Assembly: GCA_027627225.1 (NCBI GenBank)
Contig: CM051034.1
Location: 47,273,048-47,337,047 of the forward strand
Reading direction: 5' to 3'
Source of the DNA: Congeria kusceri
Taxonomy: Eukaryota > Mollusca > Bivalvia > Myida > Dreissenidae
Length of the DNA: 64,000 bases
How positions within the stretch are numbered: the first letter of the stretch is position 1; each line of letters starts with the position of its first letter. This document shows positions 26,013-63,699 of this stretch, in pieces. A program made the position numbers and the translations under genes. The notes under the pieces are model-generated. The model was not told the DNA's origin and searched no databases. It saw only the letters and a program-made list of their open reading frames with translations.

Positions 26013-26036
26013 CCATCTTCCCGGCAGCCGATTGGG
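26013..26036 (+). CDS. 24-nt microexon 1 (PSSRQPIG)
   Basis: Acceptor tttgctgttttcag, then 24 bases encoding PSSRQPIG in phase 0, then donor gtaagtaatt. It is the first intact member of the array and lies 11 kb downstream of the B-box exon. All three phases are open here, but only phase 0 is open across the whole set. Splice use is unproven. Confidence 0.5.
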
Positions 26037-27249
26037 GTAAGTAATTAAGTACTCATACACTTCCCAATGAATATATCGATTTATACACGCATTATTATTT
26101 GGCAATACAAATATAAATTTAAGTCCGTATGCGTAGATATACTTTTGGCAGCATCAAGTTCAAATATTATTCATCAGCCATCTTCATTTATTTTAATTGT
26201 TTAAATGTAGATTAATTGAATAACGTCCAGCCTTAAGTGTAGATCGTTTTTATGTGTTGTGCAGCCATTAAATTACAACGCATACAGCACATAAATATTC
26301 ACAAGAAGCACTCTCCGGTCTTTATATTATTCTACGCCTAATTCCGAAAATTAACCACGAAAGGCAGTAAGTTGTTACTCCGTTTATAATAACTCTGGCT
26401 TCAAACATCCGACATACGCCAGTTAAATTAAGAATAATAAAAAAGGAACAATAATTAAATATGTCATTGGTTCCTTTAACGCTTAAGTAATGTACAAACT
26501 ACAAATACAAAACACCCGTACTATTGTAAGTATATATGCAACTTATAAAGAATAATTTTATCTCAAAATATGTGTTTCCAAATTGATTCATCGTATTATG
26601 CAGACTTATTATGACGTGATAACTTATTATGTTCTCCTACACGTACCAACAATTTAATGTATACCCGCAATATTATTTGTTAATATAAATATAATGAAAT
26701 AATTATATGCTCATTACCAATTGCGGAGGTAAGTCTTTGATTTTTGCGATAAAAAACGGACCCACAGACAAGTACTTCCTGTTGTGAAATCGCAATAATG
26801 TTTTCCATAAAACAATACAAAACAATAAATCATGCATAATTTCGCATCTTACATACTGTACTACATACTGTGTTGTCATATAAAATATACAAGCATGAGT
26901 ATCTATAAAGATTCATATTATATACTTTTGTAATGCACCTTTGTACTGAATGATTTTTATGATGACTGCCTCTTATGGCTACACAGTAACGAAATCGGAA
27001 TGAAGTCATGCATATGTATTGCTTAATAAGCCCACGAATGCGAAGTGGTATACTAGCTATTCTAGCAAATCCATGTGTTAAATTGGTGATATTCTGTATT
27101 AAAGTGCAAAAATACATGCATTTATAAACAAGTCCTTATATTTTAAAAAAGGGATTTTCCAATGAATCCTAATTAAAAGGGCCAGTATCCAGGTTATTTA
27201 TGAAAAATAAACCTCATCTTTTTCACTAAAGTACCAAAAAGCAATAAAA

Positions 27250-27600
27250 ATGTTCCGCCGGCGGAACAAAAATTCATTCTTAAAAATTTACATGAAACTG
27301 CAGTGAATGTTCCGCTGGCGGTACAACAATAAACTGTTTTAATTACGAACACCAAATTGTGCCCCACTCATTCTTGTATTTCTAATTACAAGGAACCGAA
27401 GTGTTCTGCTGGCGGTTCAACCATCATGACATTTATATTCAGAATAACATAAAAAGTGCTCCGCCGGCGGTACAACATCCAACATTATTATTCTGAATAA
27501 CACAAAATAACAAACTAAAAGTTTTCCGCTGGCGATAGAAGTTGCCTTTACATTCTAAATTACAAAAAAAAAAAAAAGTGTACCGCTGGCGGTACTAACA
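27250..27600. repeat. CCGCCGGCGG palindrome array, copy 1
   Basis: Six GC palindromes of the form ttccgcyggcggwac near 27251, 27306, 27403, 27458, 27525 and 27579 stand out in very AT-rich sequence. Spacers resemble acatccaacattattattct plus gaataaca. Mean spacing is about 66 bp. Confidence 0.8.
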
Positions 27601-27679
27601 TCCCAACTTTAATATTCTAAATTACAGCAAACATACCAAGAATATATATATATTTTTTAATCATTGTTTAATTTAGTTT

Positions 27680-27880
27680 GAACATTTTTATTTTAACTCG
27701 ATTGTGTCGAGAGCCCGATGCTAATTGTGACACTTTTGAGTCCGTTTTTTTGTTTGTGTGTTCAGTACTTGTTCACTATTGAGAAAGATCATTCCATCGG
27801 TAGGGATCGAACCCAGGACCTCCCGATCAAAAAGCGGACACTTTATATATCCATTAGATCCACTGCCATCTTGAGTGTTT
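27680..27880 (-). mobile_element. tRNA-derived SINE (minus), array copy 1
   Basis: The minus strand has an A-box-like tggcagtggatctaatgg and B box GGTTCGATCCC, with the same tail as the SINE at 3.4 kb (gagtccgtttt, ttgagaaagatcatt). Carried along by the unit duplication. Confidence 0.7.
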
Positions 27881-28206
27881 TATATTTATAACCATTATTT
27901 TTTATCGTCCAGCATCATGTCTAATTTGGGTATTAAAATAAAGGTAAAGTCTTGTCATATCATTAACAATTCACAACGTCCGCGCCAGAATGCATTATTC
28001 TGGACGACCAACATACTCCAGATATATTTGCAATTGTCCATTATTATTTGTCTGGAATAAGCATAAATAAAAACATTATTTAAAAAAATGCATTTTGTAG
28101 TGTGGACAGAACCGGAAATTAGTTATTTTCGGATGCATTATGTTGGTTCTACCGACTAAATGTGGGTGGGAAGCTTAACATTTATGTGTAATGTTCTTTT
28201 TCATAG

Positions 28207-28278
28207 ATATAATGAAGCAATCAAGTCTGTGGAATATTTTGAAACACAATTTGTCAAATGTCAAAGGTTTTTCACTAG
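28207..28278 (+). pseudogene. Possible decayed exon, 72 nt
   Basis: Strong acceptor (gttctttttcatag) and donor (CACTAG/GTAAGC) bound 72 bases. Entering with one base left over, the frame reads YNEAIKSVEYFETQFVKCQR and then FFT. The other copies are 73, 71 and 73 nt and shift frame relative to each other, so the exon appears unconstrained, or only some copies work. Confidence 0.3.
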
Positions 28279-28657
28279 GTAAGCTCTTTGCGCAACGTGT
28301 CGTTTCGGGCATATGTTTTGTAAACACCTTAACTACGGAAGTGAACTCGATTGTCTATATGGACTAAGTCCCGTTTGTGTAAGCCTCACCTGATATATTG
28401 TACACGAATGGCAGTGTGGTGTGAATGTAAATAGTCACATGTGTTAAGTTAATGAACATGTCATTCAAGATAAATTAATCAACACCATTATTTCACAAGC
28501 ATAATGATACAATTACAGTAAGGATAAAATAACCCACAGCACAAACATCATATGCCTTTAGATAAACAGTTTTTTACTGAACATAGGTAAATTTTCAAAC
28601 GATATTTGGATCTAACTTGATTCATTGATTATTAAATCACTGCAATGTTTATTTCAG

Positions 28658-28684
28658 GTAGAACCGGAGTTTTCAATTGAATAC
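28658..28684 (+). pseudogene. 27-nt microexon, donor broken (VEPEFSIEY)
   Basis: Acceptor tgtttatttcag is intact. The 27 bases encode VEPEFSIEY in phase 0, the only open phase. The donor reads CTAAGT in place of GTAAGT. The flanks align with the 24-nt microexon flanks (aaattttcaaacgatatttg, ttcattgattatt, taagttaac), so this is a paralogous microexon disabled at its 5' splice site. Confidence 0.45.
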
Positions 28685-29128
28685 CTAAGTTAACCTAACA
28701 CTCGTTTTGATTTTCATTTTAACATTCCACAGTTTGTAAATGAACAAAAACAGTACTGGGTCATGCTATTGAAACTGTACTGTGACTGTATTACAACAAG
28801 CATTTCGAGTGCATTTTGTCTTAAAGTGACAATGTCAACGAAAAATGTTTCATGGGGGTAATTTCTTTAAAAAAGTGAAATTTAGATATTAATAACGTTA
28901 TATAATAACGGTTAAAATTAGGTATATATGATGATTATTGTGTTTTCGCATTCTTAGATAAAAAGAAATTTATAATAAGAGTCATATTTGTTTGGACCTG
29001 TAAATGTTAACATTTTGACGTCAGAGTTGTGAGTATATTGCAAAACCATAGTTTACCTTCGCATCAATACAAAGCCGACCATGGCAATTGCTGAAAACGC
29101 TGTCTCCTGCCCTTTCTTCGTATGGCTC

Positions 29129-29172
29129 CTAAGTCATTAAGATTATTAAGTCATTAAGTCATTAAGTCGTTT
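29129..29172. repeat. Short attaagtc repeat
   Basis: Four to five imperfect copies of attaagtc at the junction between two intron subunits; a similar run occurs near 51900. It probably reflects a recombination joint. Confidence 0.5.
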
Positions 29173-30269
29173 TAGATAAACAGCATTAAGTGTAGATCGT
29201 TTTTATGTATTGTACAGCCATTAAATTACAACGCATACATCACATAAATGTTCTTTTATCATTATCAAAGATTTTATTTCGTTAACAAACTTATAAATAC
29301 ACGTTCTAAAGAGAATTGATCACACGAAGCAACGGCTATCCGGTCTTTATATTATTCTACGGCTAATTCCGAAAATTAACCACGAAAGGCAGTAAGTTGT
29401 TACTCCGTTTATCATAACTCTGACTTCAAACACCCGACAGACGTAAGTTAAATTAAGAATAATAAAAAAAGGAACAATAATTAAATATGTCATTGGTTCC
29501 CTTAACGCTTAAGTAATGTACAAACTACAAATACAAAACACCCATACTATTGTAATTATATATGCAACTTTTTATAAAGAACAATTTTATCTCAAAATAT
29601 TGTGTGTTTCCAAATTGATTCATTGTATTATGCAGACGTGTTATGACGTGATAACTTATTATGTACTCCTACACGTACCGACAATTTAATGTATACCCGC
29701 AATATTATTTGTTAATATAAATATAATGAAATAATTATATGCTCATTACCAATTGCGGAGGTAAGTCTTTGATTTTTGCGATAAAAACGGACCCACAGAC
29801 AAGTACTTCCTGTTGTGAAGTCGCAATAATATTTTCCATAAAACAATACAAAACAATACATCATGCATAACATCGCATCTAACATACTGTGTTGTCATAT
29901 AAAATATATATCCATGATTATCTATAATGGTTCATATTATATACATTTTTAATGCACCTTTGTACTGAATAAATTTTATGATGACTGCCTCTTATGGCTA
30001 CACATTAACGAAATCGGAATGACGTCATGCATATGTATTGCTTAATAAGCCCACGAATGGGAAGTGGTATACTGGCTATTCTAGCAAATCCATGTGTTAA
30101 ATTGGTGATCTTCTGTATTAAAGTGGCAAAAATGTATGTATTTATTAACAAGTCGTTATATTTTAAAAAGGGATTTTCCAATGAATCCCAATTAAAAGGG
30201 CCAGTATCCAGGTTATTTATGAAAAATAAACCTCATCTTTTTCACTAAAGTACCAAAAAGCAAGAAAAA

Positions 30270-30815
30270 TGTTCCGCCGGCGGAACAAAAAGTCATTCCG
30301 AAAAATTTACATGAAATTGCAGTGAATGTTCCACTGGCGGTACAACAATAAACTGTTTTAATTACGAGAAACTAAACATCATGTCATTTATATTCAGAAT
30401 AACATAAAAATTCTTCCGCCGGCGGTGCAAGCATCCACCATTATTATTCTGATTAACAAAAAATAACAAACTAAAAGTGTTCCGCCGGCGGTACAAGTAG
30501 CCGTTACATTATAACTTACAAAAAACAAAACAAATTTGCACCGCTGGCGGTACAAACATCCCAACTTTTATATTCTAAATTACAGAAAATAAGACCAACA
30601 AATTGTTCCGCTGGCAGTACTAATATTCTGACCTTTATATTCAGAAAGACAGAAAACTTAAAACAAAATTGTTACGCTGGCGGTACTAGCATCCAAACAT
30701 TTATATTGTGTTTCACAGAAAAACAAACTAAAAGTGTTCTGTTGGCGCTATAAGTAGCCTTGATATTCTAACTTACAAATAACAAAACAAAATGTGTTCC
30801 GCTAGCGATACAAAC
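30270..30815. repeat. CCGCCGGCGG palindrome array, copy 2
   Basis: Nine palindrome positions near 30271, 30329, 30413, 30479, 30538, 30606, 30670, 30737 and 30799, the later ones eroded (gctggcagtac, gttggcgctat, gctagcgatac). Unit length about 60-70 bp. Confidence 0.8.
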
Positions 30816-30919
30816 ATCCCAACTGTAATATTCTAAATTACACAAAAAAAGACCAAGAATATATATATATTTGTTTAATCATTGTTTAAGTTAAGTTTGA
30901 ACTTTTTTTATTATAACAA

Positions 30920-31115
30920 GATTGTGTCGAAAGCCCGATGCTTATTGTGACACTGTTGAGTCCGTTTTTTTTGTTTATGTGTTCACTAATTGGTGACTAT
31001 TGAGAAAGATAATTCGAACGCCTCCCGGGTAGGGATCGAACCCAAGACCTCCCGATTACAAAGCGGACGCATTATATATCCAATAGAACCACTGCCATCT
31101 TGAGTGTTTTAAATG
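30920..31115 (-). mobile_element. tRNA-derived SINE (minus), array copy 2
   Basis: Same family and orientation as 27680-27880, with B box complement gatcgaaccc at about 31034 and tail gagtccgtttttt at about 30960. Confidence 0.7.
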
Positions 31116-31451
31116 TATAACGGTTATTTTTTATCGTCCAGCAAATGGTTTCTAGCATTATGTCTAATTTGGGTTCAAAAATAAAGGTAAAGTCATGTCA
31201 TGTCCCTAAAAATTCACAACGTCCGCGCCAGAATGCATTATTCTGGACGACCAACATACTCCAGATGTATTTGCAATTTTCCCTCATTATTTGTCTGGAA
31301 TAAGCACAAATAAAAACATTATTTAAAACAAATTGCATTTTGTAGCGTGTACAGAACCGGAAATTAGTTATTTTCGGATGCATTATGTTGGTTCTACCGA
31401 CTAAATGTGGGTGGGAAGCCTAACATTTATGTGTAATGTTCTTTTTCATAG

Positions 31452-31524
31452 ATATAATGAAGCAATCAAGTCTGTGGAATATGTTTGAAACACAATTTGT
31501 CAAATGTCAAAGGTTTTGCACTAG
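31452..31524 (+). pseudogene. Possible decayed exon, 73 nt
   Basis: Same splice sites as 28207-28278, with one inserted base (aatatgtttg for aatattttg) that breaks the frame relative to that copy. Entering with two spare bases it is open as IMKQSSLWNMFETQFVKCQR and then FCT. Confidence 0.3.
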
Positions 31525-31898
31525 GTAAGCTCTTTGCGCAACGTGTCGTTTCGGACATATATTTTGTAAACACCTTAACTCCGGAAGTGAATCCGATTGT
31601 CTATATGGACTAAGTCCCGTTTGTGTAAGCCTCACCTGATATTGTACACGATTGGCAGTGTGGTGTGAATGACAATAGTCACATGTGTTAAGTTAATGTA
31701 CATGTCATTCAAGATAAATTAATCACCATTATTTCACAAGCATAATGATACAATAACAGTAAGGATAAAATAACCCACAGCACAAACATCATATGTCTTT
31801 AGATAAACAGTATTTCACTAAACATAGGTAAATGTTCAAACAATATTTGGATCTAAATTGATTCATTGATTATTATCTCACTGCAATGCTTATTTCAT

Positions 31899-31925
31899 GT
31901 AGAAACGGAGTTTTACATTGAATAC
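31899..31925 (+). pseudogene. 27-nt microexon, acceptor broken
   Basis: The acceptor position reads ttatttcATG in place of CAG, while the donor (GAATAC/GTAAGTTAAC) is intact. This is the opposite lesion to the copies at 28658, 39700, 51426 and 62399. The coding bases also differ (gaaacgg, tttacattg). Confidence 0.4.
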
Positions 31926-33173
31926 GTAAGTTAACGTAACATTCGTTTTGATTTTCATTTTAACATTCCACAGTATGTAAATGAACAAGAACAGTACTGG
32001 GTCATGCTATTGAAACTGTACTGTGACTGTATTACAACAAGCATTTCGAGTGTGTTTTGTCTTAAAGTGACAATGTCAACGAAAAATGTTTCAAGGCGGT
32101 AATTTCTTTAAAACAGTGAAATTTAGATATTAATAACGTTATATAATAACGGTTAAAATTAGGTATGTCTGATGGTTACTGTGTTTTCGCATTTTTAGAT
32201 AAAAATTAATTTATAATAAGAGTCATATTTGTTTGGACCTGTAAATGTTTACATTTTGACGTCAGAGTTGTGAGTATATTGCAAAACCATAGTTTACCTT
32301 CGCATCAATACAAAGCCGACCATGGCAATTGCTAAAAACGCTGTCTCCTGCCCTTTCTTCGTATGGCTCCTAAGTCGTGAGTTCGATACCCGATTGGGGT
32401 TTTAAATTTTTCAAACATTGTTGCTGATTTGTTTTATCAAATATCTGATTATATATTATACTATTTAGTCTTTGTTGAATCTCCGTGTCTTAGTATTTCT
32501 CATCTGCATCATCTAATATCCTTTACAGTGCAACAGTAAACCGATTTTAAGTTGAATACTCCCTTTATGTACATGTATTAAAGGAAACAGTAATTATATA
32601 ATTTGAATACTAAAGTGTATCGTCCTGAATTAATGAACATTATTTTATTCCAAACTTTACCATTACGATAGTTCAAAATTTACCAATTAATTGTGTTTAT
32701 TCCATTGGTTCTTCGAAAACGTTAGTAATAAAAGAACAACAAGAAAAACACTCACACCATTGGTATTTAAATATTACAGTAACTTTAATCTCAAAACGAC
32801 AGTTGGTTCTGACATGATTTATCATTGCCGATTACAGCCATTTCTACATATACTGGTATGTATGTTAACTTCGGAAGTAAACTCGAATATCTATATGGAC
32901 TAATCTCCGTCTTTGTAAGCCTCATCTGATATATTACACACGATTTATAATGTGTTGTTTTTTTAAATAGCAACATGTGGTAAGTTAATGAACATTTCAT
33001 TTCAAATGAACAGTAAGACAATATAGAGTTAATTAACAACAATTTGTTAATTTCATTGAAAACTTGAACAAAATACACCGCACACATTAATATATACCGG
33101 ACTTTATTATTACAAATAAGTTATGCTTAAAACCATATTTGATTCTCAATTTATATGACTTTGCTCTTTTCAG

Positions 33174-33197
33174 CCATCTTCCATGCCGCCGCCTGGG
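33174..33197 (+). CDS. 24-nt microexon 2 (PSSMPPPG)
   Basis: Acceptor tttgctcttttcag, phase-0 octapeptide PSSMPPPG, donor gtaagtaatt. It differs from microexon 1 at five bases, all in its middle and 3' half, and four of its eight residues change. Confidence 0.5.
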
Positions 33198-33839
33198 GTA
33201 AGTAATTAAGTACTCATACACTTACCAGTGAATATATCGATTTATACACGCATTTATTATTTGTCAATACAAATATAAATTTAAGTCCGTATGCGTAGAT
33301 ATAATTTTGGCAGCATCAAGTTCAAACATTATTCATCAGCCATCTTCATTTATTTTAATTGTTCAAATGTAGATTAATTGAATAACGTCCAGCCTTAAGT
33401 GAAGATCGTTATGTATTGTGCAGCCATTAAATTACAACGCATACATCACATAAATGTTCAATTATCATTAATATGTGTAAAGAAGATTTAATTTCGTTTA
33501 CACATTTATAAATACACGTTCTAAAGAGAATTGATCACAAGAAGCAATGGCTATCCGGTCTTTATATTATAAACCTCACCTGATATATTACACACGATTG
33601 GCAGTATCTTGTTATTTTAAATAGCCACATTTGGTAAGTTAATGAACTTTTAATTCCTGACATGAAAACTAAGCCAAGATTATCAACATTTTGTTTATTT
33701 CATTGATACCATGAATATATAGTTATGAAAAAAAATACAACGCACACAATATTAGTAGCTATATATACATGACCTTATAACGAATAAGGTACTATTTAAA
33801 CAATATTTGGTTGTAAATTGATATGATATTGCTTTTTTT

Positions 33840-33849
33840 GCCGCCTAAT
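33840..33849 (+). pseudogene. Deleted microexon remnant
   Basis: tgatattgctttttttgccg followed by cctaat/gtaagtaac aligns with the flanks and the 3' third of a PSSMPPPG-type microexon, but the AG acceptor and the first half are deleted. Identical remnants lie at 44468-44477 and 56596-56605. Confidence 0.5.
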
Positions 33850-35047
33850 GTAAGTAACTATGTACTCATACAAGTACCAGTAAATAGATGTTTACACGCA
33901 CCATTATGCAGTAATATTAATAAATAGTAGTCTTTGGTCTAGAGTTCCGTATAGATCGATATACATGTATTTTTGTTGGAATCAAGTGAAAATAATAACG
34001 TTCATCATTCATCTTTTATGATTTCAATGCATATTAATTGAATACCGTTAAGCGTTTAGTGTAATATCGTATTTTATTGTGTGGCCATTATAATATTACG
34101 TCAATATCACCGTAACGTTCGATTGATATTGTACCAAGAAATTGTAAATTCGTTCTATATTGGTTCTATATTTAATTTATAATTATTGGTTCTAATAAAT
34201 TGTAAATTGGTTCTATATTTTATTTATCGTTGTTCTTTACAATAAACATGGGTGTTATGGGCACTCTGTACGTTATTTAATACGTCTACAGATACTATTA
34301 CTTGTATTAATAGAAAATTGTCATCATGAACAATACCCTATTTAAATACGTAAATCATTTTTAATAAGATATTATTGAATACCGTTAAACGCTATGTGTA
34401 ATATCGTATTATAGTCCTTTTGTGGCCATTATAATATTACGCCAATATCATCTTATTATTCATCTTCATTATTTTAACTTCCTCATACATTTGCACATAC
34501 ATGTTATGTAGATTGGATTCCAATCACAAACTCGAAATAATAATGTTATTTATAAAATCACACGAAGCCTTGGAAACCCCACGTTTATATTATTCTATGT
34601 CTCATTTGATATATTAGTCACAAACCTCGGTTAGTCTCTACATCAAATAATTACTTGTTTTAAACAGGACACATAATATTATGTAATACCTTTGAAAAAC
34701 GCACAGAACTATCCTTTTGTGAAATGTACCTTGCACCATCATAGTTGATGACCTAATTGATTTATTATTAAATACGTTTAAATAAGGACGTCATAGTAAC
34801 AGATAAGGCTATTATTTGCTTAAATATCCAATTCTGTAACACCACGTACTCAATTCATTAAACATTTAATGAGTGACAAAACTCAGTTCGTATACTTAAT
34901 ACTCGTTAAAAGCCAAACATATAGCATTCATAATGATCGGTCAATTTTCAACTGAAAGCATTATAGAGAAAAAATGAGAATTAAATTTAATTCAAGCTAA
35001 TTATGACACGAGACCTGTAGTATTTTAATAGTCTTCATGACTAAGCT

Positions 35048-37628
35048 GTGGACTGTTGACCAAGTCCACCAAATTTTTGCTCAGCCCAGTAAAGTTTGTA
35101 CTTATCTGAACCGGTGGTCCATCAAGTAACGGTTTGTTTTACGGTCTCTTGGTCATTGTTATATCCTTATTAGTATTTCCAAAACATTATTATTCGATAT
35201 TGTTTTTAATAATTGATACAAAACAGATTAAATAAACAAGTGAGTGAAGAAAACTATAACTATGGTTCCACTAAATTTTAGTCCGGTCCAGTCTATTTAG
35301 CTGGATTGGCGGAAGTACAGTCCACTGATTTGAAAATTTATTTTGAAGACTGTTTTGATCGAATCATTAATGCCAAGTTGTAAAATGGTAGCCATATTGA
35401 TTGAATTTGTGTGTTAGAGTTTTAACTCCATTTATTTATTTCCAACAATAAATTAATGTTTATGTCTTGGTACTAAACTAACATTAATGGGGATACCATA
35501 ATTTCAAATATTCAAATAAATCACCCAGAACTCTTTTATTTTAACAAGAGCTGTCGGGGGACAGCACACTCGACCTTTCGTGTGCTTATCAGAGTTGCTG
35601 GCATTGTATTTTAAAAACAAACTGTATTGATAGTATGGGCCATTTTAAAAAGTTTATTTCATTCTCGAGTTACTGATTGGATTGTTTTTTTTTTACTAAT
35701 TTTCTAAACAGTGACATTGACCCCACCCACCCCATATGGAATCTCATGTGATGTCTTGCTATACGGTATATATATATAATAAATTATGTTATACTTATTT
35801 CATTATAATAAATATTTCAATTTCTTCCATGAAAATTTAGCAGTAGCGTTTTGTTTCTATTTTTAGTAACCTTGAACTTGACGTTGACATAACACACCTC
35901 ATCCCAAATGAATGTCCAAATAAAGTATTACAGTAGGGTATCTAGGTATGAAGATTCATTCTCGAGTTAAAGAGTGGAAATCAATAGTTGACGCTGCCAC
36001 CCCACCCGCTTGAATGTAAAATTTCTAAGTGTAAGAAGGCTCACAATGTTGACACATTTCAAACACAGGCACACACACATATTTTGTTGGTAATTGTGTG
36101 TATTTATTGTCAAATGTATTACAACTGCACTTGCGAGATGGTTGTGGATGGAACTACCCCTTCCAGTCGCTTGTCAATCTCATGTTTTGGAATCGAGACC
36201 TCATCAATCGAATCGAGTTCTTTTATAGCCCCTTGTTTGATATCTGTGTAACAAGATAGACATATAACGGGTAATTGCTAAGGCACGTAGGTAATATTTA
36301 AACACCTACTGGTTTTTAGGCAGCGCCTTCCATTATCGAACAGTATTCACGAAAATATTTGAAATAAGTGGCTGTCGGTTCACTAAGCCACCTATAAGGA
36401 CTGGAGCGGGATATAATGAAGTGGACCATAGTTTGTAGATTAGTTTTCACTATTTTCTATTCAATCCGTTATAGAAATCATTAAAAACAATCATGGCTTT
36501 TCGACAGTCAATAGGTGCACAAGACTTGTCGAGGGATGTGACGTATTTTTCAAAAGCTTTTGCTTTTCAGAGAAGGGCATCACAATGTCAATTACATGTT
36601 GGCAAAAATGACGCTTCCTACAAAAGGAGTTATAGTCCTTGTACTCTGCACTTCCTCTCAACCTCCTGTATAATTATGTGTTATGTTTAATTCCTTCAAC
36701 ACTAAGGTAGTAATTATCTGCACAAAAAAGCTCCGTAAATAATGAAGAATTAGGTATAGTCCTTGACGGACTGACGGGCAGGATGACAGTCTCTGCTCTT
36801 CCTCTTAACGTCCTCTCAATATATGTGGTTTTATTTAGATTCCTTTCAATGCTAATGGAGGTATGCTCTGCACAAAAAATAAACAAAGAGTATTAAGTCC
36901 ATGAATACTGAAGAAATGGTTATGGTCCGTGTACTCTGCAGTTCTTCTCATTGTCCTCTATCAATATATGAAGTTTCATTTGAATCCCGTCAATACTAAA
37001 TAATTTATGCTCCGCAAAAGAAAATATAATGAAGGGCAGTAACTCCGTAAATATTGAAGAGTTATAGTCCTTCTGCTCTGCACTTCGTCTTATTGTCCTC
37101 TATCATTATATGAAGTTTCATTTGAATCCCTTCAATACTAATGGAGTTTTGCCCTGAACAAGACAATTAATGTTTAACGAAAGGAAATAAAACAAAGGGT
37201 AATAATTCCGTAAATATTTTGAGAATTAATTGTGGACTTTGAGTTCTGCACTTTCTCTCATTGCCCTCTATCATTATATGCAGCCAGCTGTATTTGAATC
37301 CCTTCAATACTAATGGAGATATGCTCCGCACAAGAAAATTTAACTAAGTACTATAACTCTGTAAATATTAAAGAAAGAGTTATGGTCCTTATGCTCTGCA
37401 CTTCCCCTGCGCAGAGGAAACATGATGGACTGACCGACAGACAGACAGAATCTTCGCTTACTATATGCCCCCGAAGTTCCTTTTGTGGGACATCAACAGA
37501 TGTTATTTTCTGTTTAACAATGCTTTTCCATTGACCAAAGGAACTTATATTGAGGTACCATCGGTCTAGTTAATTTATAAATTTTGCTGTACCAAGTAAA
37601 CATTTGGTGGACTAGGTCCATGGTCCAC
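35048..37628. mobile_element. Outer TIR element, copy 2 (complete)
   Basis: TIRs of about 110-120 bp: gtggactgttgaccaagtcc and accaaattttt at left, inverse of aaacatttggtggactaggt and ccatggtccac at right. The similarity continues inward to the ggtctcttggtcattg / ccattgaccaaaggaac pair. It contains the inner TIR element (about 35260-36432) and the tandem-core element (35543-37480). No transposase is recognisable. Confidence 0.65.
35543..37480 (+). mobile_element. Tandem-core element, array copy 2
   Basis: Same start (aacaagagctgtcgggggac) and end (gacagacagacagaatcttc) as copy 1, with the core of about 150 bp from 36620 to 37410. Confidence 0.65.
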
Positions 37629-38148: not shown

Positions 38149-38172
38149 CCATCTTTGCTGCAGGCGATTGGG
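38149..38172 (+). CDS. 24-nt microexon 3 (PSLLQAIG)
   Basis: Acceptor tttgctcttttcag, phase-0 PSLLQAIG, donor gtaagtaatt. Its flanks are almost the same as those of microexon 4 (4 differences in the 76 bases upstream, 5 in the 60 downstream), although the two exons match at only 8 of 24 bases. Confidence 0.5.
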
Positions 38173-39699: not shown

Positions 39700-39726
39700 G
39701 TAGAACCGGAGTTTTCAATTGAATAC
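39700..39726 (+). pseudogene. 27-nt microexon, donor broken
   Basis: Same form as 28658: acceptor ttatttcag intact, VEPEFSIEY in phase 0, donor CTAAGT. Confidence 0.4.
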
Positions 39727-40976: not shown

Positions 40977-41000
40977 GATATTGACAAGCTGATGTATGAG
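40977..41000 (+). CDS. 24-nt microexon 4 (DIDKLMYE)
   Basis: Acceptor tttgctattttcag, octapeptide DIDKLMYE in phase 0, donor gtaagtaatt. The other two phases contain TGA, so this copy fixes the phase if it is translated. Acidic and amphipathic, unlike the P/S/G-rich variants, it resembles the start of the 19162 candidate (GELYEELL) in character. Confidence 0.55.
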
Positions 41001-42525: not shown

Positions 42526-42552
42526 GTAGAAACGGAGTTTTACATTGAATAC
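42526..42552 (+). pseudogene. 27-nt microexon, acceptor broken
   Basis: Carries the 31899-type sequence (ATG at the acceptor, GTAAGT donor) although the surrounding 2.8 kb is otherwise a near-identical copy of the module holding the 39700-type sequence. See the gene-conversion finding. Confidence 0.4.
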
Positions 42553-43802: not shown

Positions 43803-43826
43803 GATATTGACAAGCTGATGTATGAG
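43803..43826 (+). CDS. 24-nt microexon 5 (DIDKLMYE)
   Basis: Exact copy of microexon 4, produced by the 2826-bp duplication. Acceptor tttgctattttcag, donor gtaagtaatt. Confidence 0.5.
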
Positions 43827-45673
43827 GTAAGTAATTAATTACTCATAAACTTAACAATAAATATATCGATTTATACACGCATTATTATTTGGCAAAACAA
43901 ATATAAATTTAAGTCCGTGTGCGTGGATATAATTTTGGCAGCATCAAGTTCAAACATTATTCATCAGCCATCTTCATTTATTTTAATTGTTTAAATATAG
44001 ATTAATTGAATAACGTCCAGCCTTAAGTGAAGATCGTTATGTATTGTGCAGCCATTAAATTACAACGCATACATCACATAAATGTTCATTTATCATTAAT
44101 ATGTGTAAAGAAGATTTAATTTCGTTAACACATTTATAAATACACGTTCTAAAGAGAATTGATCACAAGAAGCGACGTCTATCCGGTCTTTATATTATAA
44201 ACCTCACCTGATATATTACACACGATTGGCAGTATCTTGTTATTTTAAATAGCCACATTTGGTAAGTTAATGAACTTTTAATTCCTGACATGAAAACTAA
44301 GCCAAGATTATCAACATTTAGTTTATTTCATTGATACCATGAATATATAGTTATGAAAAAAAATACAACGCACACAATATTAGTAGCTATATATACATGA
44401 CCTTATAACGAATAAGGTACTATTTAAACAATATTTGGTTGTAAATTGATTTGATATTGCTTTTTTTGCCGCCTAATGTAAGTAACTATGTACTCATACA
44501 AGTACCAGTAAATAGATGTTTACACGCACCATTATGCAGTAATATTAATAAATAGTAGTCTTTGGTGTAGATTTCCGTATAGATCGATATACATGTATTT
44601 TTGTTGGAATCAAGTGAAAATAATAACGTTCATCATTCATCTTTTATTATTTGAATGCATATTAATTGAATACCGTTAAGCGTTTAGTGTAATATCGTAT
44701 TTTATTGTGTGGCCATTATAATATTACGTCAATATCACCGTAACATTCTATTGATATTGTACCAAGAAATTGTAAATTGGTTCTATATTGGTTCTATATT
44801 TAATTTATAATTATTGGTTCTAATAAATTGTAAATTGGTTCTATATTTTATTTATCGTTGTTCTTTACAATAAACATGGGTGTTATGGGCATTCTGTAAG
44901 TTATTTAATACGTCTACAGATACTATTACTTGTATTAATAGAAACTTGTCATCATGAACATTATGCTATTTAACTACGTAAATCATTTTTAATATGATAT
45001 TATTGAATACCGTTAAACGCTATGTGTAATATCGTATTATAGTCCTTGTGTGGCCATTTTAATATTAAGCCAATATCATCTTATTATTCATCTTCATTAT
45101 TTTAACTTACTCATACATTTGCACATATATGTTATGTAGATTGGATTCCAATCACAAACTCGAAATAATAATGTTATGTATAAAATCACACGAAGCCTTG
45201 GAAACCCCACGTTTATATTATTCTATCTCATTTGATATATTAGTCACAAACCTCGGTTAGTCTCTACATCAAATAATTACTTGTTTTAAACAGGACACAT
45301 AATATGATGTAATACCTTTGAAAAACGCACAGAACTATCCTTTTGTGAAATGTACCTTGCACCATCATAGTTGATGACCTAATTTATTTATTATTAAATA
45401 CGTTTAAATAAGGACGTCATAGTAACAGATAAGGCTATTATTTGCTTAAATATCCAATTCTGTAACACCACGTACTCAATTCATTAAACATTTAATGAGT
45501 GACAAAACTCAGTTCGTATACTTAATACTCGTTAAAAGCCAAACATATAGCATTCATAATGATCGGTCAATTTTCAACTGAAAGCATTATAGCGAAACAA
45601 TGAGAATTAAATTTAATTCAAGCTAATTATGACACGAGACCTGTAGTATTTTAATAGTCTTCATGATTAAGCA

Positions 45674-48763: not shown

Positions 48764-48787
48764 GCATCTTCCCGGCAGCTGATTGAG
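48764..48787 (+). CDS. 24-nt microexon 6 (ASSRQLIE)
   Basis: Acceptor tttgctcttttcag, phase-0 ASSRQLIE, donor gtaagtaatt. It is the positional counterpart of microexon 1 and differs from it at three bases, each changing a residue (P1A, P6L, G8E). Phases 1 and 2 contain TGA. Confidence 0.55.
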
Positions 48788-53664: not shown

Positions 53665-53870
53665 TTTTATTATAAGATTGTGTCGAAAACCCGATGCTTA
53701 TTGTGACACTGTTGAGTCCATTTTTTTGTTTATGTGTTCACTAATTGGTGACTATTGAGAAAGATAATTTGAACGCTTCCCGGGTAGGGATCGAACCCAG
53801 GACCTCCCGATTACAAAGCGGACACATTATATATCCAATAGAACCACTGCCATCTTGAGTGTTTTAAATG
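53665..53870 (-). mobile_element. tRNA-derived SINE (minus), array copy 4
   Basis: Counterpart of 30920-31115, with the same B box complement (ggatcgaaccc at about 53788). Confidence 0.65.
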
Positions 53871-54206: not shown

Positions 54207-54279
54207 ATATAATGAAGCAATCAAGTCTGTGGAATATGTTTGAAACACAATTTGTCAAATGTCAAAGGTTTTGCACTAG
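54207..54279 (+). pseudogene. Possible decayed exon, 73 nt
   Basis: Same sequence type as 31452-31524, with both splice sites intact. Confidence 0.3.
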
Positions 54280-54661
54280 GTAAGCTCTTTGCGCAACGTG
54301 TCGTTTCGGACATATATTTTGTAAACACCTTAACTCCGGAAGTGAATTCGATTGTCTATATGGGCTAAGTCCCGTTTGTGTAAGCCTCACCTGATATTGT
54401 ACACGATTGGCAGTTTGGTGTGAATGTCAATAGTCACATGTGTTAAGTTAATGTACATGTCATTCAAGATAAATTAATCAACACCATTATTTCACAAGCA
54501 TAATGATACAATAACAGTAAGGATAAAATAACCCACAGCACAAACAGCATATGTCTTTAGATAAACAGTATTTCACTAAACATAGGTAAATGTTCAAACA
54601 ATATTTTGGATCTAAATTGATTCATTGATTATTATATCACTGCAATGCTTATTTCATCTAG

Positions 54662-54684
54662 GAACGGAGTTTTACATTGAATAC
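54662..54684 (+). pseudogene. Shortened microexon, 23 nt, new acceptor
   Basis: Here the broken acceptor has changed again (tttcatctag), creating a new AG that with the intact donor GTAAGTTAAC would define a 23-nt exon. That length would shift the reading frame. Confidence 0.35.
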
Positions 54685-55932
54685 GTAAGTTAACGTAACA
54701 TTCGTTTTGATTTTCATTTTAACATTCCACAGTATGTAAATGAACAAAAACAGTACTGGGTCATGCTATTGAAACTGTACTGTGACTGTTTTACAACAAG
54801 CATTTCGAGTGTGTTTTGTCTTAAAGTGACAATGTCAACGAAACATGTTTCAAGGCGGTAATTTCTTTAAAAAAGTGAAATTTAGATATTAATAACGTTA
54901 TATAATAACGGTTAAAATTAGGTATGTCTGATGGTTACTGTGTTTTCGCATTTTTAGATAAAAATGAATTTATAATAAGATTCATATTTGTTTGGACCTG
55001 TAAATGTTTATATTTTGACGTCAGAGTTGTGAGTATATTGCAAAACCATAGTTTACCTTCGCATCAATACAAAGCCGACCATTGCAATTGCTAAAAACGC
55101 TGTCTCCTGCCCTTTCTTCGTATGGCTCCTAAGTCGTGAGTTCGATACCCGATTGGGGTTTTAAATTTTTCAAACGTTGTTGCTGATTTGTTTTATCAAA
55201 TATCTGATTATGTATTATACTATTTAGTCTTTGTTGAATCTCCGTGTCTTAGTATTTCTCATCTGCATCATCTAATATCCTTTACAGTGCAACAGCAAAC
55301 CGATTTTAAGTTGAATACTCCCTTTATGTACATGTATTAAAGGAAACAGCAATTATATAATTTGAATACTAAAGTGTATCGTCCTGAATTAATGAACATT
55401 ATTTTATTCCAAACTTTACCATTACGATAGTTCAAAATTTACCAATTAATTGTGTTTATTCCATTGGTTCTTCGAAAACGTTAGTAATAAAAGAACAACA
55501 AGAAAAACACTCACACCATTGGTATTTAAATATTACAGTAACTTTAATCTCAAAACGACAGTTGGTTCTGACATGATTTATCATTGCCGATTACAGCCAT
55601 TTCTACATATACTGGTATGTATGTTAACTTCGGAAGTAAACTCGAATATCTATATGGACTAATCTCCGTCTTTCTAAGCCTCATCTGATATATTACACAC
55701 GATTTATAATGTGTTGTTATTTTAAATAGCAACATGTGGTAAGTTAATGAACATTTCATTTCTAATGAACAGTAAGACAATATAGAGTTAATTAACAACA
55801 ATTTGTTAATTTCATTGAAAACTTGAACAAAATACACCGCACACATTAATATATACCGGACTTTATTATTACAAATAAGTTATGCTTAAAACCATATTTG
55901 ATTCTCAATTTATATGACTTTGCTCTTTTCAG

Positions 55933-55956
55933 CCATTTTCCATGCCGCCGCCTGGG
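55933..55956 (+). CDS. 24-nt microexon 7 (PFSMPPPG)
   Basis: Acceptor tttgctcttttcag, phase-0 PFSMPPPG, donor gtaagtaatt. Counterpart of microexon 2, with one base difference that changes S2 to F. Confidence 0.5.
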
Positions 55957-57806
55957 GTAAGTAATTAAGTACTCATACACTTACCAATGAATATATCGAT
56001 TTATACACGCATTATTATTTGTCAATACAAATATAAATTTAAGTCCGTATGCGTAGATATAATTTTGGCAGCATCAAGTTCGAACATTATTCATCAGACA
56101 TCTTCATTTATTTTAATTGTTTAAATGTAGATTAATTGAATAACGTCCAGCCTTAAGTGAAGATCGTTATGTATTGTGCAGCCATTAAATTACAACGCAT
56201 ACATCACATAAATGTTCAATTATCATTAATATGTGTAAAGAAGATTTAATTTCGTTTACACATTTATAAATACACGTTCTAAAGAGAATTGATCACAAGA
56301 AGCAACGGCTATCCGGTCTTTATATTATAAACCTCACCTGATATATTACACACGATTGGCAGTATCTTGTTATTTTAAATAGCCACATTTGGTAAGTTAA
56401 TGAACTTTTAATTCCTGACATGAAAACTAAGCCAAGATTATCAACATTTTGTTTATTTCATTGATACCATGAATATATAGTTATGAAAAAAAAACAACGC
56501 ACACAATATTAGTAGCTATATATACATGACCTTATAACGAATAAGGTACTATTTAAACAATATTTGGTTGTAAATTGATATGATATTGCTTTTTTGCCGC
56601 CTAATGTAAGTAACTATGTACTCATACAAGTACCAGTAAATAGATGTTTACACGCACCATTATGCAGTAATATTAATAAATAGTAGTCTTTGGTCTAGAG
56701 TTCCGTATAGATCGATATACATGTATTTTTGTTGGAATCAAGTGAAAATAATAACGTTCATCATTCATCTTTTATTATTTCAATGCATATTAATTGAATA
56801 CCGTTAAGCGTTTAGTGTAATATCGTATTTTATTGTGTGGCCATTATAATATTACGTCAATATCACCGTAACGTTCGATTGATATTGTACCAAGAAATTG
56901 TAAATTGGTTCTATATTGGTTCTATATTTAATTTATAATTATTGGTTCTAATAAATTGTAAATTGGTTCTATATTTTATTTATCGTTGTTCTTTACAATA
57001 AACATGGGTGTTATGGGCACTCTGTACGTTATTTAATACGTCTACAGATACTATTACTTGTATTAATAGAAAATTGTCATCATGAACATTATGCTATTGA
57101 AATACGTAAATCATTTGTAATAAGATATTATTGAATACCGTTAAGCGCTATTCGTAATATCGTATTATAGTCCTTGTGTGGCCATTATAATATTACGCCA
57201 ATATCATCTTATTATTCATCTTCATTATTTTAACTTCCTCATACATTTGCACATATATGTTATGTAGATTGGATTCCAATCACAAACTCGAAATAATAAT
57301 GTTATTTATAAAATCACACGAAGCCTTGCAAACCCCACGTTTATATTATTCTATGTCTCATTTGATATATTAGTCACAAACCTCGTTTAGTCTCTACATC
57401 AAATAATTACTTGTTTTAAACAGGACACATAATATTATGTAATACCTTTGAAAAACGCACAGAACTATCCTTTTGTGAAATGTACCTTGCACCATCATAG
57501 TTGATGACCTAATGTGATTTATTATTATATACGTTTAAATAAGGACGTCATAGTAACAGATAAGGCGCTTATTTGCTTAAATATCCAGTTCTGTAACACC
57601 CCACGTTCTCAATTCATTAAACATTTAATGAGTGACAAAACTCAATTCGTATACTTAATACTCGTTAAAAGCCAAACATATAGCATTAATAATGATCGGT
57701 CAATGTTCAACTGAAAGCATTATAGCGACAAAATGAGAACTAAATTTAATTCAAGCTAATTATGACACGAGACCTGTAGTATTTTAATAGTCTTCATGAT
57801 TAAGCA

Positions 57807-60328
57807 GTGGACTGTTGACCAAGTCCACCAAATTTTTGCTCAGCCCAGTAAAGTTTGTAGTTAACTGAACCGGTGGTCCATCAAGTAACGGTTTGTTTTT
57901 ACGGTCCCTTGGTCATTGGTATATCCTTATTAGTATTTCCATAACATTATTAATCGATATTGTTTTTAATAATTGATACATAACAGATTAAATAAACAAG
58001 ATAGTGAAGAAAACTATAACTATGGATCCACTAAATTGTAGTCCGGTCCAGTCTATTTAGCTGGATTGGTGGAAGTACAGTCCACTGATTTGTAACATGG
58101 TTGCCATATTGATGGAATTTGTGTGTTAGAGTTTTTACTCCATGAAGTTATTCTCAACAATAAATTAATGTTTATGGCTTGGTACTAAACTAACATTAAT
58201 AGGAGAGCATAATTTCAAATATTCAAATAAATCACCCAGTACTCTTTTATTTTAACAAGAGCTGTCGGGGGACAGCACACTCGACTTATCGTGTGCTTGT
58301 TAGAGTTACTGGCACTGTATTCAGAACAAAACTGTATTGATAGTAGGGGCCATTTAAAAAAGTTTATTTCATTCTCGAGTTACTGAGTGGATTGTTTTAT
58401 TTTTACTAATTTTCTAAACAGTGACATTGACCCCACTCACCCCATATGCAATCTCATGTGATGTCTTGCTATACGGTATATATATAATAAATTAAGTTTA
58501 CTTATTTCATGATAATAAATATTTCAATTTCCTCTAGGGTAATTGAGCTTTTTTTCTATTTATAGTAACCTTGAACTTGACGTTGACAAAACCCACCTCA
58601 CCCCAAATGAATGTCCAAGTAAAGTATTACCGTAGAGTATCTAGGTATGAAGATTCATTCTCGAGTTAAAGAGTGGAAATCAATAGTTGACGCTGCCACC
58701 CCACCCGCTTGAATGTAAAATTTCTAAGTGTAAGAAGGCTCACAATGTTGACACATTTCAAACACAGGCACACACACATATTTTGTTGGTAATTGTGTGT
58801 ATTTATTGTCAAATGTATTACAACTGCACTTGCGAGATGGTTGTGGATGGAACTACCCCTTCCAGTCGCTTGTCAATCTCATGTTTTGGAATCGAGACCT
58901 CATCAATCGAATCGAGTTCTTTTATAGCCCCTTGTTTGATATCTGTGTAACAAGATAGACATATAACGGGTAATTGCTAAGGCACGTAGGTAATATTTAA
59001 ACACCTACTGGTTTTTAGGCAGCGCCTTCCATTATCGAACAGTATTCACGAAAATATTTGAAATAAGTGGCTGTCGGTTCACTAAGCCACCTATAAGGAC
59101 TGGAGCGGGATATAATGAAGTGGACCATAGTTTGTAGATTAGTTTTCACTATTTTCTATTCAATCCGTTATAGAAATCATTAAAAACAATCATGGCTTTT
59201 CGACAGTCAATAGGTGCACAAGACTTGTCGAGGGATGTGACGTATTTTTCAAAAGCTTTTGCTTTTCAGAGAAGGGCATCACAATGTCAATTACATGTTG
59301 GCAAAAATGACGCTTCCTACAAAAGGAGTTATAGTCCTTGTACTCTGCACTTCCTCTCAACCTCCTGTATAATTATGTGTTATGTTTAATTCCTTCAACA
59401 CTAAGGTAGTAATTATCTGCACAAAAAAGCTCCGTAAATAATGAAGAATTAGGTATAGTCCTTGACGGACTGACGGGCAGGATGACAGTCTCTGCTCTTC
59501 CTCTTAACGTCCTCTCAATATATGTGGTTTTATTTAAATTCCTTTCAATGCTAATGGAGGTATGCTCTGCACAAAAAATAAACAAAGAGTATTAAGTCCA
59601 TGAATACTGAAGAAATGGTTATGGTCCGTGTACTCTGCAGTTCTTCTCATTGTCCTCTATCAATATATGAAGTTTCATTTGAATCCCGTCAATACTAAAT
59701 AATTTATGCTCCGCAATAGAAAATATAATGAAGGGCAGTAACTCCGTAAATATTGAAGAGTTATAGTCCTTCTGCTCTGCACTTCGTCTTATTGTCCTCT
59801 ATCATTATATGAAGTTTCATTTGAATCCCTTCAATACTAATGGAGTTTTGCCCTGAACAAGACAATTAATGTTTAACGAAAGGAAATAAAACAAAGGGTA
59901 ATAATTCCGTAAATATTTTGAGAATTAATTGTGGACTTTGAGTTCTGCACTTTCTCTCATTGCCCTCTATCATTATATGCAGCCAGCTGTATTTGAATCC
60001 CTTCAATACTAATGGAGATATGCTCCGCACAAGAAAATTTAACTAAGTACTATAACTCTGTAAATATTAAAGAAAGAGTTATGGTCCTTATGCTCTGCAC
60101 TTCCCCTGCGCAGAGGAAACTTGATGGACTGACCGACAGACAGACAGAATCTTCGCTTACTATATGCCCCCGAAGTTCCTTTTGTGGGACATCAACAGAT
60201 GTTATTTTCTGTTTAACAATGCTTTTCCATTGACCAAAGGAACTTATATTGAGGTACCATCGGTCTAGTTAATTTATAAGTTTTGCTGTACCAAGTAAAC
60301 ATTTGGTGGACTAGGTCCATGGTCCACT
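57807..60328. mobile_element. Outer TIR element, copy 4
   Basis: TIRs as in copy 2. The inner TIR pair is at about 58019-59132 and the tandem-core element at 58254-60180. The left 0.8 kb is several percent diverged from copy 2, while the rest is nearly identical to it. Confidence 0.65.
58254..60180 (+). mobile_element. Tandem-core element, array copy 4
   Basis: Start aacaagagctgtcgggggac, end gacagacagacagaatcttc. Its first 380 bp carry many private changes (gacttatcgtgtgcttgtta), and the remainder matches copy 2 almost base for base. Confidence 0.65.
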
Positions 60329-60847
60329 GGTTAATCGTTAAGACTGATCACAGGCAAAGTAAGTTGATCAGTGATATAATTGCGTTGTAGTGATATAACA
60401 ATAATATTGCACAATGTATAGGAAAGTCATTATTGTATAATATGTAGTATCATTTCTGCATCTTGAAAAGTGATTGATAAAATATAATATTCATAATCAG
60501 CGTGAGCACAATTTAAATGACCACCATTGGTATGTATATTAAATTCGGAAAATAACTCGAATATCTATATGGACTAAGCTCCGTCTTTGTAAGCCTCATC
60601 TGATATATTACGCGCGATTTATAGTGTGTTGTTATTTAAAATATCAACATGTGGTAAGTTAATGAACATTTCATTCCTAACGAACAGTAAAACAATGTAG
60701 AGTTAATTAACAACAATTTGTTAATTCCATTGAAAACATGAACAAAATACACCGCACACATTAAGATATACCGGACTTTATTATTACAAATAAGTTATGC
60801 TTAAAACCATATTTGATTCTCAATTTATATGACTTTGCTCTTTTCAG

Positions 60848-60871
60848 CCATCTTTGCTGCAGGCGATTGGG
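60848..60871 (+). CDS. 24-nt microexon 8 (PSLLQAIG)
   Basis: Identical to microexon 3, including splice sites, within the block that is almost identical to 35.94-41.30 kb. Confidence 0.5.
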
Positions 60872-62398
60872 GTAAGTAATTAAGTACTCATACACTTCCC
60901 AATGAATATATCGATTTATACACGCATTATTATCTGGCAATACGAATATAAATTTAAGTCCGTATGCGTAGATATAATTTTGGCAGCATCAAGTTCAAAT
61001 ATTATTCATCAGCCATCTTCATTTATTTTAATTGTTTAAATGTAGATTAATTGAATAACGTCCAGCCTTAAGTGTAGATCGTTTTTATGTGTTGTGCAGC
61101 CATTAAATTACAACGCATACAGCACATAAATATTCACAAGAAGCACTCTCCGGTCTTTATATTATTCTACGCCTAATTCCGAAAATTAACCACGAAAGGC
61201 AGTAAGTTGTTACTCCGTTTATAATAACTCTGGCTTCAAACATCCGTCAGACGTCAGTTAAATTAAGAATAATAAAAAAGGAACAATAACTAAATATGTC
61301 ATTGGTTCCCTTAACGCTTAAGTAATGTACAAACTACAAATACAAAACACCCGTACTATTGTAAGTATATATGCAACTTATAAAGAATAATTTTATCTCA
61401 AAATATGTGTTTCCAAATTGATTCATCGTATTATGCAGACTTATTAGGACGTGATAACTTATTATGTTCTCCTACACGTACCAACAATTTAATGTATACG
61501 CGCAATATTATTTGTTAATATAAATATAATGAAATAATTATATGCTCATTACCAATTGCGGAGGTAGGTCTTTGATTTTTGCTATAAAAAACGGACCCAC
61601 AGACAAGTACTTCCTGTTGTGAAATCGCAATAATGTTTTCCATAAAACAATACAAAACAATAAATCATGCATAATATCGCATCTTACATACAGTACTACA
61701 TACTGTGTTGTCATATAAAATATACAAGCATGAGTATCTATAAAGATTCATATTATATACTTTTGTAATGCACCTTTGTACTGAATGATTTTTATGATGA
61801 CTGCCTCTTATGGCTACACAGTAACGAAATCGGAATGACGTCATGCATATGTATTGCTTAATAAGCCCACGAATGCGAAGTGGTATACTAGCTATTCTAG
61901 CAAATCCATGTGTTAAATTGGTGATATTCTGTATTAAAGTGGCAAAAATGCATGCATGTATAAACAAGTCTTTATATTTAAAAAAAGGGATTTTCCAATG
62001 AATCCCAATTAAAAGGGCCAGTCAGCTCATTGCGCAACGTGTCGTTTCGGACATATGTTTGTAAACACCTTAACTCCGGAAGTGAACTCGATTGTTATAT
62101 GGACTAAGTCCCGTTTGCGTAAGCCTCACCTGATATATTGTACACGATTGGCAGTATGGTGTGAATGTAAATAGTCACATGTGTTAAGTTAATTAACATG
62201 TCATTCAAGATAAATTAATCAACACCATTATTTCACAAGCATATATGATACAATTACAGTAAGGATAAAATAACCCACAGCACAAACATCATATGTCTTT
62301 AGATAAACAGTATTTTACAAAACATAGGTAAATTTTCAAACAATATTTGGATCTAAATTGATTCATTGATTATTATATCACTGCAATGCTTATTTCAG

Positions 62399-62425
62399 GT
62401 AGAACCGGAGTTTTCAATTGAATAC
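62399..62425 (+). pseudogene. 27-nt microexon, donor broken
   Basis: VEPEFSIEY form with an intact acceptor and CTAAGT donor; counterpart of 39700. Confidence 0.4.
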
Positions 62426-63675
62426 CTAAGTTAACCTAACATTCGTTTTGATTTTCATTTTAACATTCCACAGTTTCTAAATGAACAAAAACAGTACTGG
62501 GTCATGCAATTGAAACTGTACTGTGACTGTATTACAACAAGCATTTCGAGTGTGTTTTGTCTTAAAATGACAATGTCAACGAAAAATGTTTCAAGGGGGT
62601 AATTTCTTTAAAAAAGTGAAATTTAGATGTTAATGACGTTATATAATAACGGTTAAAATTAGGTATTTATGATGGTTATTGTGTTTTCGCATTCTTAGAT
62701 AAAAAAGAAATTTATAATATAAGAGTCATATTTGTTTGGACCTGTAAATGTTTACATTTTGACGTCAGAGTTATGAGTATATTGCAAAACCATAGTTTAC
62801 TATCGCATCAATACAAAGCCGACCATGGCAATTGCTAAAAACGCTGTATCCTGCCCTTTCTTCGTATGGCTCCTAAGTCGTGAGTTCGATACCCGATTGG
62901 GGTTTAAATTTTTCAAACACTGTTGCTAATTTGTTTTTTCAAATATCTGATTATGTATTATACTATTTAGTTTTTGTTGAATCTCCGTGTCTTAGTGTTT
63001 CTCATCTGTATCATCTAATATCCTTTATAGTGCAACAGCAAACCGATTTTAAGTTGAATACTCCCTTTAAGTACATGTATTAAAGGAAACAGTAATTATA
63101 TAATTTGAATACTAAAGTGTATTGTCCTGAATTAATGAACATTATTTTATTCCAAACTTTACCATTACAAAAGTTCAAAATTTATCAATTAAATGTGTTT
63201 ATTCCATTGGTTCTTCTAAAACATAAGTAATAAAAGAACAACAAGAAAAACACTCGCACCATTTTTATTTAAATATTACAGTAACTTTAATCTCAAAACG
63301 ACAGTTGCTTCTGACTTCGTTTATCATTGCCGATTACAGCCATTTCTACATGTACTGGTATGTATGTTAACTTTGGAAGTGAACTCGAGTATCTATATGG
63401 ACTAAGCTCCGTCTTTGTAAGCCTCATCGGATATATTACACGCGATTTATAGTGTGTTGTTATTTTAAATAGCAACATCTGGTAAGTTAATGAACATTTC
63501 ATTCCTAATGAACAGTAAGACAATATAGAGTTAATTAACAACAATTTGTTAATTTCATTGAAAACATGAACAAAATACACAGCATACATTAAGATATACC
63601 GGACTTTATAATTACATATAAGTTATGCTTAAAACCATATTTTATTCTCAATTTATATGACTTTGCTATTTTCAG

Positions 63676-63699
63676 GATATTGACAAGCTGATGTATGAG
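63676..63699 (+). CDS. 24-nt microexon 9 (DIDKLMYE)
   Basis: Identical to microexons 4 and 5, with acceptor tttgctattttcag and donor gtaagtaatt. It is the last member in the window; the array continues beyond 64000. Confidence 0.5.

Follow-up and report, generated by a model that had tools for sequence, protein, structure and literature searches.

The 64,000-nucleotide (nt) stretch of DNA analysed here, referred to below as the window, is derived from the bivalve Congeria kusceri (GenBank assembly GCA_027627225.1, contig CM051034.1, here C11, positions 47273048-47337047, forward strand) and contains what is probably a TRIM-like B-box gene furnished with an array of alternative microexons, each of which could be included without altering the reading frame and which together would constitute a selected repertoire of short peptide inserts. 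The elements in question are a long B-box exon and, downstream of it on the same strand, nine segments of exactly 24 nt bounded by nearly invariant splice signals. Their positions, counted from the first letter of the window, are as follows.

14119-14991, plus strand: B-box exon of 291 codons (873 nt), with a phase-0 end at CAG/GTAAAATA
25691-26301, plus strand: core unit of ~610 bp (intron flanks plus microexon), common to all nine copies in the window
26013-26036, plus strand: 24-nt microexon PSSRQPIG, exact splice-bounded match
33174-33197, plus strand: 24-nt microexon PSSMPPPG, exact splice-bounded match
38149-38172, plus strand: 24-nt microexon PSLLQAIG, exact splice-bounded match
40977-41000, plus strand: 24-nt microexon DIDKLMYE, exact splice-bounded match
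43803-43826, plus strand: 24-nt microexon DIDKLMYE, exact splice-bounded match
48764-48787, plus strand: 24-nt microexon ASSRQLIE, exact splice-bounded match
55933-55956, plus strand: 24-nt microexon PFSMPPPG, exact splice-bounded match
60848-60871, plus strand: 24-nt microexon PSLLQAIG, exact splice-bounded match
63676-63699, plus strand: 24-nt microexon DIDKLMYE, exact match; the array goes on past the window

The initial annotation of this DNA had described a tandem array of nine such segments, and their starts, lengths and peptides are as it claimed, with TTTTCAG on the 5' side and GTAAGTAATT on the 3' side of each. A search of the window for TTTTCAG-N24-GTAAGTAATTA that allowed up to three mismatches returned these nine places, all of them exact; the same pattern matched shuffled versions of the window 0.38 times on average, and none of 100 shuffles reached nine. 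The nine copies are nevertheless neither independent events nor the whole of the array. They are parts of a 22.7-kb higher-order repeat in the order A B C D D A' B' C' D, the two units of which are 97.4% identical over 18.3 kb, and they lie 2.8-7.2 kb from their neighbours, as very short phase-0 exons separated by long introns.

Genome searches, which covered 1.549 Gb, extend the array well beyond the window. A 250-bp probe gave at least 41 matches (the best 40 of 45 candidates were scored), at least 27 of which fall at 47.299-47.449 Mb of C11; one of these is partial and lacks the exon, and the other 26 are full copies. The main array thus spans ~150 kb, of which ~112 kb lies past the edge of the window, and all of it follows a single B-box exon. 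Of the full copies, 23 have the 24-nt length; two have 21 nt, encode SLHMLIK and carry the donor GTAAATAA, and one, at 23 nt, has had its frame broken by a 1-nt deletion. The earlier expectation that any choice of cassettes would preserve the frame is therefore upheld for all nine segments in the window and for 25 of the 26 tandem homologous exons of the main array. CAG and GT are retained in 26 of 26, a count that represents fewer independent cases, since the retained splice sites of the 24-nt class share ancestry.

That these segments are coding is indicated by the distribution of their differences, the concentration of which inside the 24 nt went unmentioned in the initial annotation. The 23 copies of 24 nt, which represent 13 distinct sequences and 12 peptides, have a mean diversity (pi) of 0.358 in the exon, as against 0.034 over the 60 nt immediately upstream and 0.058 over the 60 nt immediately downstream, and no 24-nt window outside the exon exceeds 0.197. 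When each distinct sequence is counted once, codon positions 1, 2 and 3 have diversities of 0.41, 0.57 and 0.11 (third-position permutation p = 3e-5), and the ratio of nonsynonymous to synonymous differences (pN/pS) comes to 4.2 for frame 0, 0.76 for frame 1 and 0.42 for frame 2, rising in frame 0 to 4.9 among the 10 P/A-type sequences alone. Frame 0, the frame set by the phase-0 end of the B-box exon, is free of stops in 13 of 13 sequences, whereas two sequences have stops in frame 1 and four in frame 2. On a tree built from the flanks, the three codon positions (eight sites each) require 16, 23 and 7 steps at a flank rate of 0.357 per site, so that positions 1 and 2 together show 39 steps where 5.7 are expected; position 3 shows a slight excess, 7 steps versus 2.9 (p = 0.027). 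Recombination and common ancestry among the copies make the exact p-values for selection less secure, but leave its direction unaffected. Because pN/pS exceeds 1 in frame 0 only, and because the variation is found at the first two codon positions, the sequence data argue strongly that the microexons are translated and subject to diversifying selection.

The sharp edges of the variable segment, which coincide with both splice sites, could also bring to mind a mutational hot spot or a site of targeted replacement that has no selected coding role, and the D-type exon and the first P-type exon do have different letters at 15 of 24 sites, within flanks that are 92-94% identical. A mutational process would not, however, be expected to spare third positions (0.11, versus 0.41 and 0.57), and we give this explanation hardly any credence. 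An origin of the segments by intron insertion (introners) was ruled out, as their length stays at 24 nt and they share one reading frame.

A related question is whether the array might be a decaying by-product of segmental duplication, composed of cryptic and rarely spliced exons that have no selected function. Dead copies are indeed numerous, and those in the window are listed here.

33840-33849, plus strand: decayed copy of the microexon that retains the donor GTAAGTAA but not the acceptor AG
44468-44477, plus strand: decayed microexon copy, acceptor lost
56596-56605, plus strand: decayed microexon copy, acceptor lost
28658-28684 (also at 39700, 51426 and 62399), plus strand: relic 27-nt microexon, donor lost
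31899-31925 (also at 42526 and 54658), plus strand: relic 27-nt microexon, acceptor lost

All ten copies that carry the GTAAGTAACTATG donor have lost the acceptor, and the flanks of the three in the window have drifted to about 65%. The 27-nt class has both splice signals at 32.70 Mb of C11 (reverse strand), where it encodes EKLEQSYPN; in the main array each of its 18 copies has lost one signal (acceptor in nine, donor in nine), which reflects mainly two ancestral losses rather than 18 independent events. These two classes, together with the one copy bearing the 1-nt deletion, are what a decaying array would be expected to contain. They also indicate that exons lacking a function do lose their signals at this locus, whereas the 26 full copies have kept CAG and GT, with the reservation about ancestry noted above. 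Neutral drift, moreover, does not generate a pN/pS of 4-5 in a single frame or conserved third positions, and we regard decay as a very unlikely account of the 24-nt class.

The B-box exon, whose product begins MATASEVCGFC, is 66% identical over residues 1-286 to a Dreissena polymorpha protein of 380 amino acids annotated as TRIM45-like isoform X5 (P0001). In Pfam, zf-B_box scores 23.4 bits in the window exon, just under the cut-off of 24.1, and 25.3 bits in the D. polymorpha homologue. No RING match at E<=0.01 precedes the B-box in the window exon or in P0001 and three further relatives (P0002-P0004), and, leaving aside the Deltex and kinase domains of those further relatives, the B-box is the sole Pfam match; we therefore speak of a B-box protein and not of a full TRIM protein. 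The segment that follows the B-box is presumably a coiled coil, as in the TRIM family; a sequence search of the PDB gave no match. The exon ends where the initial annotation had placed the origin of splicing, at 14991 (CAG, phase 0), with the donor GT at 14992.

Three paralogous loci on C11 combine a B-box exon with microexons. P0001 yielded 109 listed matches in the genome of the window (108 scored of 2503 first-look candidates), the best at only 68%, and three of its five best matches, namely those in the window, at C11:45307131(-) and at C11:32719501(-), are followed on the same strand by the microexon family. The proposal of a library of interchangeable inserts is supported in part: phase-0 coding behaviour, the position behind a B-box exon of matching strand and phase, and a diversity favoured by selection stand, and inclusion in mRNA and free combination are its predictions. 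The paralogous B-box exons have their phase-0 donor in a common position, and the exon ends with DKQ/GTAAAAT in four cases (the window and 45.31, 32.72 and 45.67 Mb) and with NKQ/GTAATT in the exon at C316. Comparisons with the C316 exon give a ratio of nonsynonymous to synonymous substitution rates (dN/dS) of 0.20-0.25, a sign of constraint. Synonymous divergence (pS) between the B-box exons of the window and the 32.72-Mb locus is just 0.005, while their cassettes are quite different; gene conversion could contribute to the likeness of the B-box exons.

At the 45.3-Mb locus, a second array presents 18 donor places, and 11 of 11 that were read are microexons of 21 nt. Their pN/pS is 5.7 in frame 0, and 0.44 and 0.76 in the other frames, in a small sample of four distinct sequences. 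Counted without gaps, differences in this array affect 38 of 90 upstream sites, 5 of 21 exon sites and 5 of 90 downstream sites; the upstream value probably stems from a shift caused by an indel, as the unit as a whole reaches 94% in an aligned search. At the 32.7-Mb locus the B-box exon is followed by two 24-nt copies, TFPMKLPV and QVRRSLRE. Genome searches with the splice motifs point to the same three places. The donor motif, at up to two mismatches, had 60 matches (1 in the control), 59 of which form three C11 clusters that lie downstream of the B-box exons and share their strand. These clusters also take in every one of the 40 acceptor-motif matches with 0-1 mismatch. At up to three mismatches the acceptor motif had 152 matches and its control 43, those with 2-3 mismatches lying mostly elsewhere among the matches listed, as in the control. 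The donor search added 12 places at the main locus. Ten of them are the dead copies and the other two have diverged: one, at 47451522, is 21 nt long with both splice signals (ARSTPRN), and one, at 47458286, measures 19 nt from the nearest CAG and is out of frame.

It is conceivable that the microexons are part of a different gene that shares the strand, and that no transcript connects them with the B-box exon, given that this junction is predicted and that the first microexon lies 11, 12 and 21 kb from the B-box exon at the window, 32.7-Mb and 45.3-Mb loci, respectively. Strand, order and phase are nonetheless compatible at all three paralogous loci, and the intron that follows the B-box exon, ahead of the first microexon of the second array, is homologous between that locus and the window (3.1 kb, 95.6%). 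We consider a separate gene unlikely.

The mechanism that we envisage would begin with a bivalve B-box gene that carries, after its phase-0 exon, a long array of 24-nt (elsewhere 21-nt) cassettes, each of which would add eight (or seven) residues and leave the frame unchanged. Repeated duplication of the unit would supply new cassettes, and under selection the encoded peptides would diverge, with hardly any change in splice sites or intron flanks. One or a few cassettes would then be spliced between the B-box exon and a 3' exon, resulting in short peptide variants behind a B-box module, the simplest interpretation of which might be a variable binding segment in an intracellular recognition protein. 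What the DNA establishes is the segments with their splice signals and frame, a coding signature, diversifying selection, and B-box linkage at three loci; a recognition role is suggested by the mode of selection. More tentatively, the several paralogs might amount to a germline combinatorial library of 7-8-residue units in an intracellular B-box protein, serving immune or self-recognition diversity.

The D. polymorpha relatives bear on how many cassettes a transcript might contain. Past residue 286, directly after the part encoded by the B-box exon, P0001 continues with PGIIQTDI and PSARSEIA and then a tail, and these two stretches are possible octapeptides. PSARSEIA (residues 9-16 after the exon) is identical to PSSRQPIG at four of eight positions (in-register shuffle p = 0.013). 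P0001 belongs to a cluster of 26 sequences from one contig, and this membership, together with its isoform name, may reflect several isoforms. It is quite possible, if somewhat short of an even prospect, that each transcript strings together several or even many cassettes, in the manner of micro-exon genes, and so encodes a peptide stretch that is both repetitive and variable. Since every intact copy begins and ends in phase 0, any number could be joined; P0001 could hold two octapeptides in tandem, and the docking/selector pairing looked for in one array by one simple method was not found. The tandem reading of P0001 is, on the other hand, drawn from its protein sequence, and identical neighbours, such as DIDKLMYE twice running, would yield plain repeats.

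The tails of the relatives differ: P0002 and P0003 have a Deltex C-terminal domain and P0004 has a kinase domain, which implies that an N-terminal B-box module has been joined to different tails. Residues 281-380 of P0001 matched only P0001 itself in a protein search, and tblastn of the whole relatives on 234 kb matched only the B-box exon. When the tails were compared by tblastn with the last 60 kb, one weak Deltex-tail match with an internal stop, at best a relic, was found near 47.4415 Mb (E 0.001), and nothing else fell below E 0.7.

A number of observations weigh against a B-box gene with a selected cassette repertoire. Inclusion of the cassettes in mRNA is deduced from the DNA; the first of them is 11 kb from the B-box exon in the window, the array spans 150 kb, and several cassettes are identical to one another. 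B-box paralogs at C11:45670254 and C316:40125 have no donor motif nearby. Among the four close B-box exons, dN/dS is 0.6-1.9, based on few changes, and no constraint is visible, so that constraint rests on the C316 comparison. The youngest duplicates, the 22.7-kb units, show no faster change in the exon (4 of 96 sites, versus 2.6% overall); those four differences are all replacements. A four-of-eight match anywhere in the P0001 tail arises by chance with p = 0.41, and the tail contains another such match, EVSRSLFK, that is not in register. Joined octapeptides had no match at E<=10 in a protein database search, the P0001 tail had none in the genome (one candidate scored, no positive control), and neither the Deltex tail of P0002 nor the kinase relative gave a listed match at the three loci in genome searches. 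Finally, the core unit in antisense paired with the 5' intron no better than 10 shuffles did, and a comparison of copy A with copy B, run with no control of its own, likewise gave no docking/selector pairing.

If the array is transcribed as its sequence suggests, protein diversity would be made in units of eight residues, and selection would be aimed at segments small enough for gene finders to miss easily. Molluscs, to our knowledge, lack antibodies, and a TRIM-like gene of this kind would offer them a testable exon-library system. A rule for genome-wide searches also emerges, namely to look for splice-bounded symmetric microexons that are more diverged than their introns and have conserved third codon positions.

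We found no description of this array in the literature, which was searched mostly at the title and abstract level. Arthropod Dscam (Dscam1) likewise has multiple alternative exons at fixed positions of one gene, which give a large isoform repertoire with a part in pathogen recognition in mosquitoes, but its exons encode parts of Ig domains (PMC4015677) and their choice is reportedly mediated by RNA structure (PMC8042237), for which no corresponding pairing was found here. The present exons are of 21-24 nt, in a B-box gene, and diversity is concentrated in the microexon. The micro-exon genes (MEG) of Schistosoma resemble the array in having short exons, mostly multiples of three, and long introns, with isoforms generated by skipping; they mostly have a signal peptide, are described as secreted, and devote up to 75% of the coding sequence to micro-exons (PMC10526429, PMC4015677), whereas here a single exon is repeated in tandem homologous copies behind a B-box exon of 873 nt. 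Tandem duplicated exons of the Drosophila Gr39a type are reported to be alternatively spliced too (PMC9741552, PMC2204066), and differ, as far as those accounts go, in copy number, in the tiny size of the present exons and in the confinement of selection to the exon. The B-box zinc finger and the nearest named relative, 'tripartite motif-containing protein 45-like', recall TRIM proteins; the Pfam match to a B-box alone and the relatives with Deltex C-terminal or kinase domains do not.

Several minor observations concern the surroundings. A tRNA-Leu(AAG) gene lies at 22375-22450 of the window, past the B-box exon and ahead of the first microexon, and C11:47408188-47410908, inside the array, holds long open frames that look reverse-transcriptase-like by eye and that we take to be a retroelement. 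B-box exons are strongly expanded at C11:50-57 Mb (95 of the 109 listed matches are on C11), many of them with Deltex C-terminal matches in the same megabases. On contig C1, at 28.6-34.4 Mb (plus strand), there is a separate 24-nt family, TTTTCAG-24 nt-GTAAGTAAAG, with unrelated introns (best 40 of 98 candidates). Three copies that were read (IDHRGLCV, IDHCRRWT and TFHAIQCQ) have flanks 80-93% identical and exons that share 9-15 of 24 sites; among the matches listed, 13 sequences give pN/pS of 0.77, 0.80 and 1.09 by frame, one frame-0 stop and no signature of selection. At C1:818678-929998, five identical TTTTCAG-24 nt-GTAA places ~27.8 kb apart are likely to form a tandem array.

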